Positions 35,414 to 41,546 of a stretch of 64,000 bases of DNA are shown here, in pieces (positions within the stretch are counted from its first letter, which is position 1; each line of letters begins with the position of its first letter). The translations under genes were made by a program, and so were the position numbers. The stretch comes from an endosymbiont of Lamellibrachia barhami (GTDB lineage: Bacteria; Pseudomonadota; Gammaproteobacteria; Chromatiales; Chromatiaceae): contig NZ_JAAVSH020000001.1 in the NCBI RefSeq assembly GCF_011947365.2, positions 2,296,199-2,360,198 of the forward strand, given 5' to 3'. A model generated the notes under the pieces. The model did not search any database and was not told the origin of the DNA. It saw nothing but the letters and a program-made list of their open reading frames with translations.

Positions 35414-35757
35414 AACAGAGGGCTTGGGGCCGCTTCTCATTACTGCAAGGCTCAGGTATGCCAGGGTAGGCAATCTGTCTATATCTTCAGCATTGAGCCC
35501 TATCTCTACCCCAATCTCAATGTTTTCCAGGTCATGGAAAACATCTGTTTTTTCAGCTTTCTTATTGCGTTACACATATCTTGGCCTGCCAAATAAACAT
35601 ATTAATAAAATAAGGGTAGGGTTTTTTTTCCGCAATGGTAGTAGTTCTGCCCAAGGTCAAATCTCGTCTGTTTTGTAAGGTTGTTTGTAGATTATCGGCA
35701 ACAGTCAAATAAGCCAATAATCACAATATAACTAAATAATGATTCTGGGGAGGAAAC
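35414..35757. other. Intergenic region between metH and the Cyc2-like gene
   Basis: About 340 AT-rich bases with no convincing gene. The last 60 bases (AATAATCACAATATAACTAA, then TAATG) look like promoter DNA, and GGGGAGGAAAC is the ribosome-binding site of the next gene. No clear terminator follows metH. The lower GC content compared with metH marks a change of region. Confidence 0.4.
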
Positions 35758-37020
35758 ATGACCATAGGCACAAGCAACATGCTTCAACGTATTTCCCTAA
35801 CGGGCTTAATACTAATAAGCGGCGTTTTGACAATACCTAAAGAAGCCTCGGCCGTTCCGGCCTTTGCACGACAAACGAGCATGCCCTGTACCGCATGCCA
35901 CTTTCAACATTTTCCCGCGCTCAATACCTTTGGTCGCGCTTTCCGTGCTGGCGGCTACACCATGACAGGCGGCCAAGGGCTGATTGAGAGTGACGATCTC
36001 TCCATGCCTGCAACACTCAATGCCTCAGTCATCGCAAAGCTCCGTTATGTCAAAACCAACGGAAACTCAGATCAAGGAACAGACCGGGGAGAAATTCAGT
36101 GGCCTGATGAAGCCGCACTGCTTATCGGCGGACGATTGGCTGCCAAGGCGGGATTCCTCATGGAACTTGGCCTTGTCAGTGGCGTTGAAGATGACACCGC
36201 CAACGCTTTCCTGTCGACAAAGGTTCACTTCAATGTTGCACAAGTAGGCAACACTCAACTCAGCGCCATCCCCTTTTCCACGGATGGCCTGGGCTCTGGT
36301 TACGGCTTTGAGCTTCTCAATACCGGCGCTCAGCGCTCCCAGCGCCCCATCGAAGATCGCAAGGGATTCAGTGCTGCCCAGGCACTTGGGCTTGCAAGCG
36401 GGGCCGCCACCGGTCTCGCCTTGGTGGCTTCCAGCAACAACTACTTCCTCAACTACTCGCCTTGGGTTCCTGGATGGGGTGGTACCGATATGGAGGTCGC
36501 ACCATCCGGACTCGCCCACTACTTCAGGGCTGCCTATACGCCATTTATCGGAAGTTGGGACACCGGTTTTGGCGTTCAATACTGGACCGGCGATGCCGAA
36601 GTGGCAGATGGTCCTGTCGACAAGATCATAGCTACAGATGGTTGGGTCATCGACGGGCAGGCACAGGGCAATGTGGGTGGCATGCCGTTGGGAATCTATG
36701 CAAGTTACGGCGAGTGCTCGCATGATGCTGACCATTTTGTCGGTAATTGCAGTAATGCCAATAACGCGGATTCCTTTGCTATTCTGGGACAACTCGGGTT
36801 GATACCCAACAAGGTTGATATCTATGCCGCCTACCGCATGCTGGACGATGGATCGACTACCGATTCAGAATTCAACTCGGTCACGCTTGGTGCAAACTAC
36901 ATGTTCGCTCAGAATGTTCGACTTGAATTCTACTACGTAACAGAAGACGGTTCCGGCGTGGATGCGCGAGCCGATGGTCACGACAACAAGTTTACTCTGC
37001 AACTGTTTGCGGGTTTCTGA
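35758..37020 (+). CDS. Cyc2-like fused monoheme cytochrome-porin
   Basis: A 420-residue outer-membrane protein. A signal peptide ending ASA (residue 32) is followed by a short cytochrome domain: FARQTSMPCTACH (heme motif at 44-48), HFPALNTFGRAF and GGYTMTGG. The remaining roughly 350 residues alternate polar and hydrophobic short strands with Gly/Asn turns. The protein ends in Phe (FTLQLFAGF), as outer-membrane barrels do. One N-terminal heme plus a barrel of this size is the architecture of Cyc2, the outer-membrane Fe(II)-oxidising cytochrome of neutrophilic and acidophilic iron oxidisers. The diheme cytochrome gene follows 68 bases later. Function in this organism is inferred; a heme-tagged porin of other role is the alternative. 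Confidence 0.72.
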   Translation: MTIGTSNMLQRISLTGLILISGVLTIPKEASAVPAFARQTSMPCTACHFQHFPALNTFGRAFRAGGYTMTGGQGLIESDDLSMPATLNASVIAKLRYVKTNGNSDQGTDRGEIQWPDEAALLIGGRLAAKAGFLMELGLVSGVEDDTANAFLSTKVHFNVAQVGNTQLSAIPFSTDGLGSGYGFELLNTGAQRSQRPIEDRKGFSAAQALGLASGAATGLALVASSNNYFLNYSPWVPGWGGTDMEVAPSGLAHYFRAAYTPFIGSWDTGFGVQYWTGDAEVADGPVDKIIATDGWVIDGQAQGNVGGMPLGIYASYGECSHDADHFVGNCSNANNADSFAILGQLGLIPNKVDIYAAYRMLDDGSTTDSEFNSVTLGANYMFAQNVRLEFYYVTEDGSGVDARADGHDNKFTLQLFAGF

Positions 37021-37088
37021 GGGTTAACCTCATTTGTTCGATCAGCCACCACACGTGCTAGTCACAAATAATGTTGCAGGAGTTAGAG

Positions 37089-37748
37089 ATGATAAAACGA
37101 CATACGGTAATACTGGCATCGGCACTACTTGCCGGTGCGATTTTCACTTCGCCCGTTTTTTCCGCCTCATCCAAGGCGTATGAGGGAAATCAATTATTCA
37201 ACACGACCTGTTTTCTTTGCCACGGAAAAAGCGGCAAAGGGGATGGCCCGCTGGCAGGGAAACTGGACACGCCTGTCACGGATCTTACCAACGGAGGCCA
37301 TGTCAGCCAATTGTCGGATAGAGAGTTATTCCGAATCATTCAGGGGACCATGGCCCACGGAACGGTCAATAAGAGCATGCCAAGATGGGGTTTGGCGATA
37401 TCCGAACCGCAGATACACTCTCTGGTTGCCTATATTCGGTTTCTTCACCGATCAAAACACGAGCTTGCAGGCGATCCGGAGCTTGGAAAAAAGGTGTACC
37501 AAAAAAATTGCGCAACCTGCCATGGGAGAGACGGCAAAGGGGATGGCGCTTTGACCAATGTCATTACAATGTCACCCGCAGATCACACTGATGGGGTTAC
37601 GATGAACCAAATCAGTAACGAACAGATGCGCAAAAACATCACCATTGGAAGCACAGGAAAGGGTTTGATGCCTGGCTGGAAAGACTTGTTATCTGATGCA
37701 GAGATTGACGGACTCATCAGTTACATCAGGTTGCTATCCAACCATTAA
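37089..37748 (+). CDS. Periplasmic diheme cytochrome c
   Basis: A 219-residue exported cytochrome with two class I c-type domains. A signal peptide (about 1-26, VFSA-S) precedes heme motifs CFLCH (41-45) and CATCH (141-145). Each motif is followed by GKGDG, and axial Met candidates lie in KSMPRW and GLMPGW. ATG 37089 has AGGAG nine bases upstream. It shares orientation with the Cyc2-like gene and is followed by a strong terminator, so the two form a probable unit in which this protein carries electrons from the outer membrane across the periplasm. Confidence 0.9.
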   Translation: MIKRHTVILASALLAGAIFTSPVFSASSKAYEGNQLFNTTCFLCHGKSGKGDGPLAGKLDTPVTDLTNGGHVSQLSDRELFRIIQGTMAHGTVNKSMPRWGLAISEPQIHSLVAYIRFLHRSKHELAGDPELGKKVYQKNCATCHGRDGKGDGALTNVITMSPADHTDGVTMNQISNEQMRKNITIGSTGKGLMPGWKDLLSDAEIDGLISYIRLLSNH

Positions 37749-37772: not shown

Positions 37773-37808
37773 ACGTCCCGTTTACCCAACCGGTAAGCGG
37801 GACGTTTT
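37773..37808 (+). terminator. Rho-independent terminator after the cytochrome pair
   Basis: A 14-base stem (ACGTCCCGTTTACC with GGTAAGCGGGACGT, one G-T pair) closes a CAACC loop and is followed by TTTT. It is strong and faces the cytochrome genes. Confidence 0.9.
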
Positions 37809-37818
37809 ACTATTGTCC

Positions 37819-38397
37819 TCACAGTTCATTCAGAATGCGATTACGGATTGTTTGATACTCTTTCTCGGAAACAAGACCTTCCTCATACAGGTCGTTCAGG
37901 TGTATAAGACGCTCTTTACTTGTCTTCGGTACAACCTGCTCTACAGCTTGCGCGGCTTGAGTCTGAGAAGCCTTGGCTGCCTCTGAGGAGACTTCTTTTT
38001 CCACTGGCGCAGCAACCGGCGAGGCAGCAACGGCAGAAGCAGAAGCAGAAGCAGTGCCTTTTGACTGGACTTTCATAGGCTCGCCACACTTTAACTTGGC
38101 ATCAACTCCACGACTGATAACCCGTCCGCTTACACGCTGAGAGAGTGGCTCGCATCCATCCATTTCCAGCTGAATGATTCCGTAGAGTGCTATCTTTTCC
38201 GGATCGTAGACCAGCGGAAACACATCCTGCTGCTTCACATCGACCGGCGTATTCCCCATCGATTTACCCATGACATAAACCGCTGCACCTGAAGGCTCGG
38301 AACGAACCGGTATCGTGTCAGTATTCGGAACAATCAGTGAACTGCCGCATCCCTGCAACAGCATTGCTGAGAAAAGAATAGAATATTTTTTGAACAT
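37819..38397 (-). CDS. Lipoprotein with PEGA-like and SHOCT domains
   Basis: A 192-residue predicted lipoprotein from ATG 38397 (MFKKYSILFSAMLLQGCGSS; lipobox LLQGC). A PEGA-like beta domain follows (VRSEPSGAAVYVMGKSMGNTPVDV), then an Ala/Ser/Val-rich linker (about 115-150), and a C-terminal SHOCT motif (RLIHLNDLYEEGLVSEKEY). PEGA domains bind surface or cell-wall polymers; SHOCT is a short oligomerisation motif. It is convergent with the cytochrome genes. Function unknown. Confidence 0.82.
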   Translation of the reverse strand: MFKKYSILFSAMLLQGCGSSLIVPNTDTIPVRSEPSGAAVYVMGKSMGNTPVDVKQQDVFPLVYDPEKIALYGIIQLEMDGCEPLSQRVSGRVISRGVDAKLKCGEPMKVQSKGTASASASAVAASPVAAPVEKEVSSEAAKASQTQAAQAVEQVVPKTSKERLIHLNDLYEEGLVSEKEYQTIRNRILNEL

Positions 38398-38703
38398 ATC
38401 ACTGACTCCACGTAGTTTTTCTTGTGTCCGATACCATGAATTATTCAAGGCAGGCGATTAAGCCAGACTTCGTCCTCACAACCAATTTGTACCAGCTCCC
38501 GATTAAAAAATCGACGTTGGCTTCTCACATCGCGTGACATAGATCATACCAACATCCCGTATCTTTGGGGACGATATATGGGAACCCTATTGAACCGGTT
38601 TTTCGAACTAACGGGGAGAATGAGACATCTCTACCTGGCCGAAATGACGTAATCACTTTTGCAAAACAACTTTAGAACGCCTCCACCCTGGAAGTGGTTT
38701 TCC

Positions 38704-40122
38704 ATGACAAGAACTCTCCGGCTCACTCTCTTGTTACTGCTCGGCAGCCTGCTCGTCAGCCCTGCCTATTGCCTGCCGTCACTGCAGCTTTTTATTGACC
38801 TGACACCGCTCGGCACCACCCTGCGGCCGCCCGCAGGCACCTATCGCGGCCCTATCATCATTTCACGTCAGATCACCCTCGACGGGCAGGGAGTGGTCAC
38901 CATCGACGGGGGCGGCAAGGGCACAGTCCTCACCGTAAAGGCCGATAATACGGTTATCCGGGGACTGCATCTCACCAACTCCGGGGAGTCCCACAATGCC
39001 CTCGATGCAGGTCTGCAGCTTAACGCGAATAATGTGACATTCGAACAAAACACCCTCGACAATGTGCTGTTCGGCATCAACATCCATCAGGGCAACGACA
39101 ACACCATTCGGGGCAACCGAATCTCCTCCAAACCTGTCGTATCCAGTCTGCGCGGTGAAGGAATACGATTATGGTACAGCCGCAACAATCATATTGAAGA
39201 GAATGAGATTATCGGCGTGCGTGACCTGCTTCTGACCAACTCTGCCGATAACCACATCATCGGCAACAGACTACAGAACAATCGCATCAGTATGGAGTTC
39301 ATCTTCTCACCAGGGAATGAGATACGGGGCAACCATATCGGCAACAATGACACCGGCATCGTCGCCATCTATTCAGATGAACTGGATATCCGGGACAACC
39401 GCATCGAACACATACGCAACACCGGCAGCTCAGCACTTGCCATCAAGGAGAGCTCCCAAGTCGCCATCGTCAACAATGAGATCGTGCACAATGCCGTGGG
39501 ACTGACGGCAAACTCACCGATTCACCCGGAGAACATCCTCTATATACGTAACAACCACTTCACCTACAACAACATCGCCATCTATTTCTACGGCGAGAAG
39601 GGCGGCCACATCATCCATAACAATCATTTCGACAATAACCTGATGTCCGTTGCGGTGAGCGCGCCAATCAGTGCTCGTTATAACGATTGGCGCAACAACC
39701 ATTGGGATAACTATGAAGGTTTCGACTTGGACGGGAACCACATTGGAGATCTGCCGCACGACATCTATCTCTACGCCGACCGTATCTGGATGGATCGGCC
39801 AACAACGCAGTTTTTCCGCAGCACACCCACTATGGAGTTCATCGATTTCATAGAACGCCTCGCCCCCTTCTCCGATCCCGAACTGATTCTCAGCGACCCG
39901 GCCCCCCCGCATACACTGACATGTGCGGCCGCCTATGCCGGGGCTATACTGTGCCTATCTATCCGGACAAGCATTGAAGGCGTTTCATGCAACACAAGGA
40001 CCAGCCAGATCAAAAACTCTGCATCGCATGCAAAGAGCCGATCCACGAAAACGCCTCTCTCTGCCCCCACTGCGCCACTCCGCAGCACCAGAGCAAATGG
40101 CACTATTTCACTCTCTCCCTGA
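38704..40122 (+). CDS. NosD-like periplasmic right-handed beta-helix protein
   Basis: Exported protein whose body is a chain of about 22-residue Asn-rich repeats (NNHIEENEI, NNRISMEF, GNHIGNND, NNEIVHN), the parallel beta-helix of the NosD/CASH family. NosD helps copper-site maturation of nitrous oxide reductase, but no other nos gene is present. The signal peptide starts at ATG 38704 (MTRTLRLTLLLL); a TTG 15 codons earlier is less likely. NosD proteins normally end soon after the DPELILSDPAPP-like segment. Here the frame continues 66 residues and overlaps the next gene by 136 bases. A run of seven C at 39902-39908 is the likely site of a frame error, since losing one C gives a stop at about 39924. 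Confidence 0.78.
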   Translation: MTRTLRLTLLLLLGSLLVSPAYCLPSLQLFIDLTPLGTTLRPPAGTYRGPIIISRQITLDGQGVVTIDGGGKGTVLTVKADNTVIRGLHLTNSGESHNALDAGLQLNANNVTFEQNTLDNVLFGINIHQGNDNTIRGNRISSKPVVSSLRGEGIRLWYSRNNHIEENEIIGVRDLLLTNSADNHIIGNRLQNNRISMEFIFSPGNEIRGNHIGNNDTGIVAIYSDELDIRDNRIEHIRNTGSSALAIKESSQVAIVNNEIVHNAVGLTANSPIHPENILYIRNNHFTYNNIAIYFYGEKGGHIIHNNHFDNNLMSVAVSAPISARYNDWRNNHWDNYEGFDLDGNHIGDLPHDIYLYADRIWMDRPTTQFFRSTPTMEFIDFIERLAPFSDPELILSDPAPPHTLTCAAAYAGAILCLSIRTSIEGVSCNTRTSQIKNSASHAKSRSTKTPLSAPTAPLRSTRANGTISLSP

Positions 40123-41546
40123 AGTGGATCGGTGGCTTTACCGCCATCCTCTCGCTGGTGATCGTTGCCAACCAGACTCAGGATCTTCTCGGCCAGTGGA
40201 AAAATACCCAGGAGACCGTCAATGAGCGGGTGGAGGGGGCGAAACTACAGCGGGAGATAGGCGACTTAAACGGCGCATTCCAGCAGTTGAAGCAGGCGCT
40301 TGAACTCGATCCTTCATCCAGCGAAGCGCGCAAGTTTGAAGTTGAGCTGGCGATGGAGCAGTTGCGCAGAGTCATGGTGATCGACGTGCGTCACTCCCAT
40401 CGCGATCAATACCAGTCCATACAGGAGAACCAACTCGGCCTGGTGCTCTACCGTGGAGCCGTCTCCGCCGCGGACGAAGAGCGGGCAACCATCATGGCCC
40501 ATCTCGGCTGGCTCGATATACTCAGACATCGCAATGGCATCGAAGGCCTGAATATTGACCTCCATTTCAGCAAGGCGCTGAAACTGGATCCAAACAACCT
40601 CTACGCGAACGTCATGTGGGGGAGTTGGATCCCCAACCGATATAATCCGAGCAAAGATACAGAGGACAAAGTAGCGCTCTCACGAAAACACTTCGCCAGA
40701 GCTTTGCAGCATAAAGAACAGCGTCGCTATGTACGCAGGCTCCAGAGACAGGCCTACAGAGACCATCCGTTGGAGCTGTTACGCATCGGCTATGAGATGT
40801 ACAGATCTGGTGAGCTTCCCGCGCTCCAGCCCTATCCCACCCGCCCCTTCGTTGACTTGATCTCCCAAGCCCACCAGCGGCAGCGCAGTTGGGATGCACT
40901 CACCCAGCAGTTTTCACTGGAGGAACTGCTCGCACTCACCGCGTGGCTGCTGGTGGAATATCCCGACCTGGAGAGTGAAAGCGGCGTCTATGCCAACGAG
41001 CAGAGGAAAGAGGCGCTCTACTACGCCAAAGGCAAGATCCTTGTCGAAATGGGGAAGGATAAAAATGCACTGGATGCCTTCCTGAAATCCCAGAGCCTAT
41101 TCATCGAACGGATCAAATTCACCAGCTCCCGCTATGCGGAGAAAGAACTGCAGAACTCCATCAATCCCCAACTCGAGGCGCTGGCGAAGAGACTGGACAT
41201 CCCCCTAAAACCCGCCCTGGTCTCCTACGGGGGATATGCAAACGGCGGCGCCATGACCGCCGGACTGGAGAATGGCGACTTGATCCTTTTCTTTAACGGG
41301 GCCCCCCTGCACTCGCAATCGCGACTCCCCGAAAGAGGCAGCGACCCGACAACCGCTTCGATCGAGGTATTGCGATCAGGAAAGCTGCTGACGATCGAAT
41401 TTCAGGCCAACCGCCACGGCATCAACAGCCGGCAGATCCTTGTGCCTGCAGCGCTATGGGACAGGGAAACGACCGAGATGCAGCGACAGCAGCTGCACCA
41501 AACCTGGATCAACCCGCATGAGACTATTCCCCTTGACGCAGGATGA
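39987..41546 (+). CDS. Zinc-ribbon, membrane and TPR protein with PDZ-like C-terminus
   Basis: A 519-residue protein. A double CxxC zinc ribbon (CIACKEPIHENASLCPHC, about 12-29) precedes a membrane segment (about 46-62). TPR-like helices follow (about 80-120 and 170-390, for example GAFQQLKQALELDP). The C-terminal part has PDZ-like features (about 415-490; LENGDLILFFNGAPL). The zinc ribbon is probably cytoplasmic and the remainder periplasmic. The last 23 bases overlap the convergent aspartic-protease gene. I do not recognise a named family; a role in envelope protein assembly or quality control is a guess. Confidence 0.75.
   Translation: MQHKDQPDQKLCIACKEPIHENASLCPHCATPQHQSKWHYFTLSLKWIGGFTAILSLVIVANQTQDLLGQWKNTQETVNERVEGAKLQREIGDLNGAFQQLKQALELDPSSSEARKFEVELAMEQLRRVMVIDVRHSHRDQYQSIQENQLGLVLYRGAVSAADEERATIMAHLGWLDILRHRNGIEGLNIDLHFSKALKLDPNNLYANVMWGSWIPNRYNPSKDTEDKVALSRKHFARALQHKEQRRYVRRLQRQAYRDHPLELLRIGYEMYRSGELPALQPYPTRPFVDLISQAHQRQRSWDALTQQFSLEELLALTAWLLVEYPDLESESGVYANEQRKEALYYAKGKILVEMGKDKNALDAFLKSQSLFIERIKFTSSRYAEKELQNSINPQLEALAKRLDIPLKPALVSYGGYANGGAMTAGLENGDLILFFNGAPLHSQSRLPERGSDPTTASIEVLRSGKLLTIEFQANRHGINSRQILVPAALWDRETTEMQRQQLHQTWINPHETIPLDAG

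Follow-up and report, generated by a model that had tools for sequence, protein, structure and literature searches.

What does a gene that looks like cyc2, the gene for the fused outer-membrane cytochrome-porin of iron oxidisers, do in a bacterium that lives with a tubeworm? The question was raised by a stretch of 64,000 nucleotides (the window; contig NZ_JAAVSH020000001.1, positions 2,296,199 to 2,360,198) from an endosymbiont of Lamellibrachia barhami, for which an earlier note (the original prediction) had proposed a Cyc2-like porin-cytochrome and a diheme cytochrome c in a sulfur oxidiser. We conclude, with a probability of about 0.72, that the window holds an intact cyc2 of the Cluster 1 type that is under selection, that the heme of its product takes electrons from Fe(II) and that the diheme cytochrome relays them. 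The label of sulfur oxidiser is plausible by analogy, because relatives of the organism are known as such; the alliances of vestimentiferans and of lucinids with bacteria are textbook cases of symbiosis driven by sulfur. The features of the gene, in coordinates of the window, are as follows.

35758..37020, + strand: cyc2, encoding a Cluster 1-type fused cytochrome-porin of 420 amino acids (motifs, homologues, tree, AlphaFold2 model)
35758..35853, + strand: probable signal peptide, residues 1-32, cut between ...EASA and VPAFARQ (sequence; helix 5-24 of the model)
35851..35877, + strand: AVPAFARQT, residues 32-40, matching the Cyc2 signature AXPXFAR[Q/K][T/Y] (sequence)
35887..35901, + strand: CTACH heme c attachment site, residues 44-48 (sequence)
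36019..37014, + strand: predicted 16-strand beta-barrel, residues 88-419 (AlphaFold2 model, strands counted by hand)

After the likely signal peptide, the open reading frame (ORF) encodes AVPAFARQTSMPCTACHFQHFPALN, which holds the signature, a single CXXCH and a PXL motif. These three elements are among the published sequence criteria for Cyc2 (PMC8406198; here and below, papers are cited for the parts of their text that were available). The PXL motif is PAL at residues 53-55, 4 residues past CTACH, the whole protein contains one CxxCH, and its 420 residues compare with a length of at least 365 expected of Cyc2. In a 57-row alignment, A32, P34, A37, R38, Q39 and T40 of the signature and C44, C47, H48 and P53 of the heme region were invariant. 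There were 17 invariant columns, 12 of which lay in residues 32-62 round the heme site. Export is probable, as judged from the A-S-A/V cleavage context and helix 5-24. The sole Pfam match was Porin_4 at 21.2 bits, below the cut-off of 27; no Cyc2 model was matched in the Pfam and NCBIfam searches, NCBIfam gave no match whatever, and a PDB sequence search returned none.

The whole cyc2 ORF was kept in all six genomes of the genus, our own included, and the ratio of nonsynonymous to synonymous substitution rates (dN/dS) was 0.050-0.130 over their 15 pairs. Given this conservation, the ORF is far beyond chance, and a chance ORF or mis-called motif was ruled out by conservation, dN/dS and synteny. 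The diheme gene gave 0.096-0.249 in the same six genomes. As a control, two pairs were recomputed: cyc2 gave 0.087 in both, close to the values of 0.108 and 0.085 for the upstream gene, which we take from its sequence to be metH. Five other neighbours ranged from 0.096 to 0.254, each above cyc2 in both pairs, and the highest was a PEGA-domain lipoprotein gene described below. Thus, cyc2 is under strong purifying selection and is a gene in use, and the lipoprotein is less constrained than Cyc2. The G+C content at third codon positions (GC3) was 0.55 for cyc2, 0.53 for the diheme gene and 0.78 for metH.

We compared the protein with its relatives by tblastn. Eighty loci were listed, among which the absence of a locus is uninformative; E-values were computed for candidate stretches only, and the set was without the Cyc2 of PV-1 and the verified Cyc2 of A. 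ferrooxidans. Among the matches listed, the nearest were those of the symbionts of Lamellibrachia anaximandri (96%) and Escarpia spicata (95%), followed by Ca. Thiodiazotropha and other lucinid clam symbionts (66-69%). Gallionellaceae had 34-39% identity, in alignments that ran from residue 3-33 to residue 389-420, and named Mariprofundus loci 26-32%. The similarity was far beyond E < 1e-5: Gallionella/Sideroxydans loci gave 4e-67 to 5e-54, and the best named Mariprofundus locus gave 2e-31.

A careful tree of 56 rows and a quick tree of 69 rows were built from rows hand-picked among the fetched loci; near-identical, truncated and many redundant zetaproteobacterial rows were excluded, as were loci L051 and L061, and more distant Cyc2-like proteins served as the root. 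In the 56-row tree, the window Cyc2 fell inside a clade of 52 rows with Zetaproteobacteria and Gallionellaceae (support 100/100). Its own branch comprised 13 rows, gammaproteobacterial plus one labelled 'Lambdaproteobacteria' (100/100), and lucinid symbiont Cyc2 was the sister group of the window Cyc2 (100/99). The gammaproteobacterial branch joined a branch of delta, Nitrospirota and Nitrospinota rows (union 94/87), and the quick tree had the same outline. The branching order, gamma with delta and then beta, matches the available account of the tree in PMC12442345, in which gamma stands beside delta and beta outside. The tree places the window Cyc2 as a member of Cluster 1 among those of animal symbionts. 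Membership in the distant Cyc2-like group L008-L012 was ruled out, since those of them in the tree form the outgroup. The L008-L012 proteins and an Acidithiobacillus plasmid protein resemble the window protein in the N-terminal heme region; unlike it, they align over residues ~1-146 only and differ in barrel sequence, and the PXL of the L008-L012 group is one residue nearer the heme site. A plasmid origin was also rejected, as the plasmid collection gave N-terminal matches only, in 8 records. The symbionts of L. anaximandri are assigned to GTDB genus QGON01, separate from Ca. Endoriftia (PMC12045306), and our genus is most likely this QGON01 of vestimentiferan tubeworm symbionts.

The fold was predicted with AlphaFold2 from the 57-row alignment; heme is absent from the model. 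The mean predicted local distance difference test score (pLDDT) was 87.6 and the predicted template modelling score (pTM) was 0.84. We counted 16 main strands by hand between residues 88 and 419, plus an extra hairpin at 279-292. The top VIA-align matches were OprP (2o4v) and OprO (4rjw), both with Z 23.3, with root-mean-square deviations of 3.3 and 3.8 over 303 and 308 aligned residues, respectively. OprP and OprO are the porins named for the Cyc2 of Mariprofundus PV-1 (PMC8406198). In Foldseek, the best 50 rows were outer-membrane barrels, with OmpT of Vibrio first and OprP third.

Several points of the original prediction were borne out by these results. The exported 420-residue protein with CxxCH at 44-48 was found as ORF 35758..37020 with CTACH at those residues. 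The barrel-like region ending in Phe corresponds to the predicted barrel and a C-terminus of ...LQLFAGF, and the proposed structure check returned a predicted 16-strand outer-membrane barrel with OprP/OprO on top by VIA-align. The Cyc2-like identity was upheld by motif, long-range similarity and rooted tree. The window protein is like the Cluster 1 Cyc2 of Mariprofundus and Gallionellaceae in signature, single CXXCH, predicted 16-strand OprP/OprO-like barrel and clade, as well as in similarity over most of the length and, in the rows listed, the 4-residue spacing from heme site to PXL. It is unlike them in identity (26-39% among the matches listed) and in host biology.

Three further features follow cyc2.

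37089..37748, + strand: periplasmic diheme cytochrome c of 219 amino acids with two Cytochrome_CBB3/Cytochrom_C stretches (ORF, ribosome-binding site, Pfam)
37773..37805, + strand: terminator-like hairpin past both genes (14 pairs, 8 of them G-C, then TTTACT)
37819..38397, - strand: convergent PEGA-domain lipoprotein, third member of the trio (lipobox LLQGC by eye; Pfam)

The two-heme cytochrome downstream and a terminator past both genes had been foreseen; the cytochrome and a terminator-like hairpin were recovered. The mechanical diheme ORF (37071..37748, + strand) has 225 amino acids and two CxxCH; its ATG at 37071 is the less likely start, and the ATG at 37089 is more probable because AGGAG (37078-37082) stands 6 bases before it. 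Cytochrome_CBB3 was matched at 6e-25. The diheme cytochrome is the probable electron acceptor of Cyc2. A weaker hairpin of 5 pairs lies between the two genes (37018-37032), and the sole site in a sigma-70-like site scan was on the - strand. Because of this weak hairpin and the strand of that site, the two genes are likely co-transcribed, as far as sequence can tell. Terminator-like sites numbered 8 in the scanned stretch, compared with 3.9 (sd 2.1) in shuffles. No Rfam family reached the gathering cut-off within the window. The lipoprotein matched PEGA (PF08308) at 26.2 bits (cut-off 20.8) and, at its C-terminus, SHOCT at 16.4, below the cut-off of 27. Its mechanical ORF reaches 38448; translation more likely begins at the ATG at 38397, because in five sister species a TAA lies inside the matched stretch and the open frame is shorter.

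How far do these genes travel together? A cyc2 match was present in 28 of 210 genomes of the family and 5 of 61 genera: six genomes of our own genus (g1), 19 of g8, and one each of g73, g22 and g61. The sister genus g8 is likely Thiodiazotropha because its member G012 (L007) sits among named Thiodiazotropha and Ctena symbionts in the 69-row tree. The gene was whole or near whole in 27 genomes, two of which had broken frames: a frame change in G159 (L153) and one TAA in G163 (L155), with the diheme and PEGA genes open in both. In the g61 genome (G078), the match covered only 71 N-terminal residues in a frame of 96 amino acids, with no diheme or PEGA neighbour at E 1e-5; this stretch (L150, 5241-5528) has the heme motif and lacks a barrel, and it may be a remnant or an assembly break.

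The diheme gene lay directly downstream of cyc2 in 6/6 genomes of the genus and in 19/19 g8 genomes with cyc2, where the matched ends were 114-171 bases apart. It was present in 19 of the 22 g8 genomes, the same 19 that have cyc2 (Fisher p 6e-4, uncorrected for kinship), and the three without cyc2 gave no diheme match at E 1e-30. Lipoprotein matches (E up to 1e-8) were found in 34 of 210 family genomes, including all 27 with whole-length cyc2, in each of which the gene adjoined the diheme gene by coordinates; none was detected at this cut-off in the three g8 genomes without cyc2. Seven further matches were weak (E 4e-16 to 7e-9), so that the lipoprotein family extends beyond the trio. All three genes occurred together in 27/27 family genomes with whole-length cyc2. 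Thus, cyc2, the diheme cytochrome gene and the PEGA lipoprotein gene are a co-inherited trio. In L013 and L014, both tubeworm loci, the trio has the same outer neighbours as in the window (metH-like, NosD-family and four others), which were not found within 6 kb in six lucinid symbiont loci (L015-L019, L021). Since these flanks differ between tubeworm and lucinid loci, the kept unit is the trio and not a larger block. Separate acquisition by each symbiont genus is less likely than inheritance of the trio in the family, because two further genera (G147 and G202) bear the same trio. An older transfer into the family would fit the patchy spread of cyc2, the lower GC3 of cyc2 and the diheme gene compared with metH, and the tree neighbours from other phyla.

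We propose the following mechanism. In the predicted protein, an exported N-terminal single-heme domain is fused to the 16-strand outer-membrane barrel. The heme, in or at the barrel, would accept electrons one at a time at the cell surface, with Fe(II) or a similar soluble compound as donor. The diheme cytochrome would ferry them across the periplasm, as proposed for Cyc1, to a cbb3 oxidase as sink, or to bc1; ccoN was over cut-off in 6/6 genomes of the genus. The PEGA lipoprotein may serve to keep the conduit in place at the outer membrane or to put it together. Verified Cyc2 are those of A. ferrooxidans and Leptospirillum, and Cyc1 is thought to move electrons across the periplasm (PMC7029218); the Cyc2 of PV-1 is a biochemically verified iron oxidase (PMC8406198). 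Because Fe(II) oxidation is the activity shown for other Cyc2, we infer that dissolved Fe(II) is the best founded donor among Fe(II), minerals and partner cells, and by analogy tubeworm symbionts would be able to oxidise Fe(II). Fe(II) would then supplement sulfide as an electron source, chiefly for free-living cells at vent or seep interfaces; alternatively, the benefit could lie in the handling of Fe(II) inside the host. The strong selection on a Cluster 1 cyc2 across six species of the genus suggests that a further electron input, probably tied to iron, is of importance in one phase or another of the life cycle. Together, the diheme cytochrome and the lipoprotein offer a concrete, testable partner set for the exit of electrons from Cyc2. 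A cyc2 in a metagenome is not proof of an iron oxidiser.

Several observations weigh against Fe(II) oxidation. First, the adult symbiont is intracellular, a setting in which Fe(II) or minerals outside the cell do not suggest themselves as a donor. Second, cyc2 is dispensable in the sister genus g8, as it is frame-broken in 2 of 19 bearers and was not found in 3 of 22 genomes. Third, the predicted fold would indicate a porin-like barrel rather than Cyc2 specifically, because Foldseek ranks OmpT of Vibrio above OprP. In addition, an insensitive profile, run over flanks of unequal length, gave no PEGA match beside cyc2 in the loci of Gallionellaceae or Zetaproteobacteria, and in this respect the gammaproteobacterial branch may differ in function. 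Finally, the literature examined gave no Fe(II) oxidation shown for any member of that branch, and for lucinid symbionts in particular it is not shown in the available text of PMC12442345. The available parts of two proteomic studies of the Riftia symbiont (PMC6918071 and PMC7787665, supplements excluded) do not contain the word Cyc2, and on porins and cytochromes they name the dominant porin only.

The stronger of two rivals is that the protein is a Cyc2 homologue with a role other than Fe(II) oxidation: a single-heme outer-membrane conduit for another soluble donor or acceptor, with sulfide or thiosulfate derivatives or host redox carriers as candidate partners, or a route of electron disposal. 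Such a role would suit a branch that within Cluster 1 is separate from the known iron oxidisers, has neighbours of its own (the diheme cytochrome and the PEGA lipoprotein) and is found in symbionts known as sulfur oxidisers, and other extracellular electron transfer in bacteria not known as iron oxidisers is raised by He 2017 (PMC5566968). However, the heme region is conserved as in iron oxidisers, with 12 of the 17 invariant columns in residues 32-62, the model resembles the porins named for the Cyc2 of PV-1, and positive evidence for another donor was nil. We consider this role unlikely, if worth keeping in view. The sub-threshold Porin_4 match and the likeness of the barrel to phosphate porins and general porins might suggest an ordinary substrate porin, whose heme would be decorative or structural and would pass no electrons across the membrane. 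This reading is highly improbable, given that conservation is strongest in the heme domain, that the cytochrome gene comes next in 27/27 family genomes with whole-length cyc2 and that the Cyc2 of PV-1, an iron oxidase, resembles the same porins (PMC8406198).

We surveyed the neighbours of cyc2 across Cluster 1. A two-heme ORF followed cyc2 in 10/10 named loci L013-L022 and also in L037, L059, L044 and L045; the window thus shares its diheme gene after cyc2 with some Gallionellaceae-type loci (L044, L045). The neighbour script found no two-heme ORF downstream in L023-L036, and it can miss such genes: it missed the one in L002, which does have a diheme gene by cyc2. For the lipoprotein, a PEGA profile was built from six proteins taken from a search of all ORFs with the window-family profile. 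Because all six seeds are cyc2 neighbours, its count leans to cyc2 neighbourhoods. At E up to 1e-3 it matched in 16 of 79 named loci, each time no more than 2 kb from cyc2, and gave zero matches in the 438 kb farther away. It saw 3 of the 8 known gammaproteobacterial PEGA lipoprotein loci (L013-L019, L021), so its misses are weak evidence, including those that set the window apart from the Gallionellaceae and Zetaproteobacteria loci.

In the delta-like and Nitrospirota loci (L023-L036 and L038), a PEGA lipoprotein stood beside cyc2 in 11 of 15; L027 has only 302 bases downstream, and in L028 the gene lies upstream of cyc2. Among new loci, from which four that repeated earlier ones had been set aside in each set, PEGA matched in 7 of the 11 that belong to the L032 phylum (L167 being one of the seven) and in 0 of the 8 that belong to the L036 phylum; for two of those 8, less than 900 bases are available downstream. 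Pfam PEGA was above cut-off in 10/10 proteins of one set and 4/5 of another (L151, 19.7 vs 20.8 bits). The lipoproteins of the delta-like and beta loci have a C-terminal PEGA and lie on the same strand as cyc2, whereas those of the gamma loci have an N-terminal PEGA and a weak SHOCT and lie on the opposite strand. These differing layouts leave descent of the lipoproteins from a common ancestor unsupported. The PEGA link is common in some Cluster 1 lineages and was not seen in others.

The co-inherited lipoprotein is the newest part of the findings. Tentatively, it may be an unrecognised third part of the Cluster 1 Cyc2 conduit: a lipoprotein-anchored outer-membrane machine, unlike that of the classic iron oxidisers, would enable sulfur symbionts living inside cells to trade electrons with Fe(II) or the host, and the same arrangement would extend from animal symbionts to groundwater 'Deltaproteobacteria', some Nitrospirota/Nitrospinota and some Rhodocyclales/Burkholderiales. 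Taken as a whole, we hold this proposal to be possible, though doubtful.

The symbionts of Tevnia and Ridgeia, like that of Riftia, are Ca. Endoriftia. All three carry a Cyc2-like gene and PCC3 in the same genome (He et al. 2017, PMC5566968). The window organism is like them in its vestimentiferan host, its Cyc2-like gene and the PCC3-like cluster of its genus, and most likely unlike them in genus (PMC12045306); our sequence searches recovered no Endoriftia Cyc2. The Cyc2 of the lucinid symbiont Ca. Thiodiazotropha was used in 2025 to date the Cyc2 family (PMC12442345). The window Cyc2 is like it in being its sister in the tree, in 66-69% identity among the matches listed and in the same gene trio, and differs in genus, host and outer gene flanks. 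Cyc2 in tubeworm (2017) and lucinid (2025) symbionts is therefore already published, and the window Cyc2 adds a member. In our searches of the open-licence literature, we found no account of Cyc2 in seep (QGON01) symbionts and none of the cyc2-diheme-PEGA trio.

Other candidate electron-transfer genes were seen in the genus. The paired-CXXCH family was over cut-off in 6/6 genomes, and the MtrA-like decaheme family had matches in 6/6 and was over cut-off in 0/6. A PCC3 cluster places a porin next to two large multiheme cytochromes and an inner-membrane protein. A PCC3-like cluster was found in G005 (L149) as consecutive ORFs of 308, 560 (20 CxxCH), 1209 (47 CxxCH) and 839 amino acids; in our own genome (L147; G000 C1 1257000-1275000) its frames are interrupted, by decay or assembly error. 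In a second heme-rich island (L148; G000 C1 3070000-3086000), a pair made up of a 4-heme gene and a 3-heme gene is duplicated; the island also encodes a protein with 11 CxxCH and a 380-amino-acid protein that contains a paralogue of the diheme cytochrome. Upstream of cyc2, at 35612-35652 of the window, AAGGGTAGGGTT and ATGGTAGTAGTTCTGCCC were invariant among the six genomes of the genus; this conserved block sits in an otherwise drifting AT-rich leader and is a possible regulatory site. Past the trio, at 38659-41546, the window contains overlapping ORFs for a NosD-family beta-helix protein and a tetratricopeptide repeat (TPR) protein.

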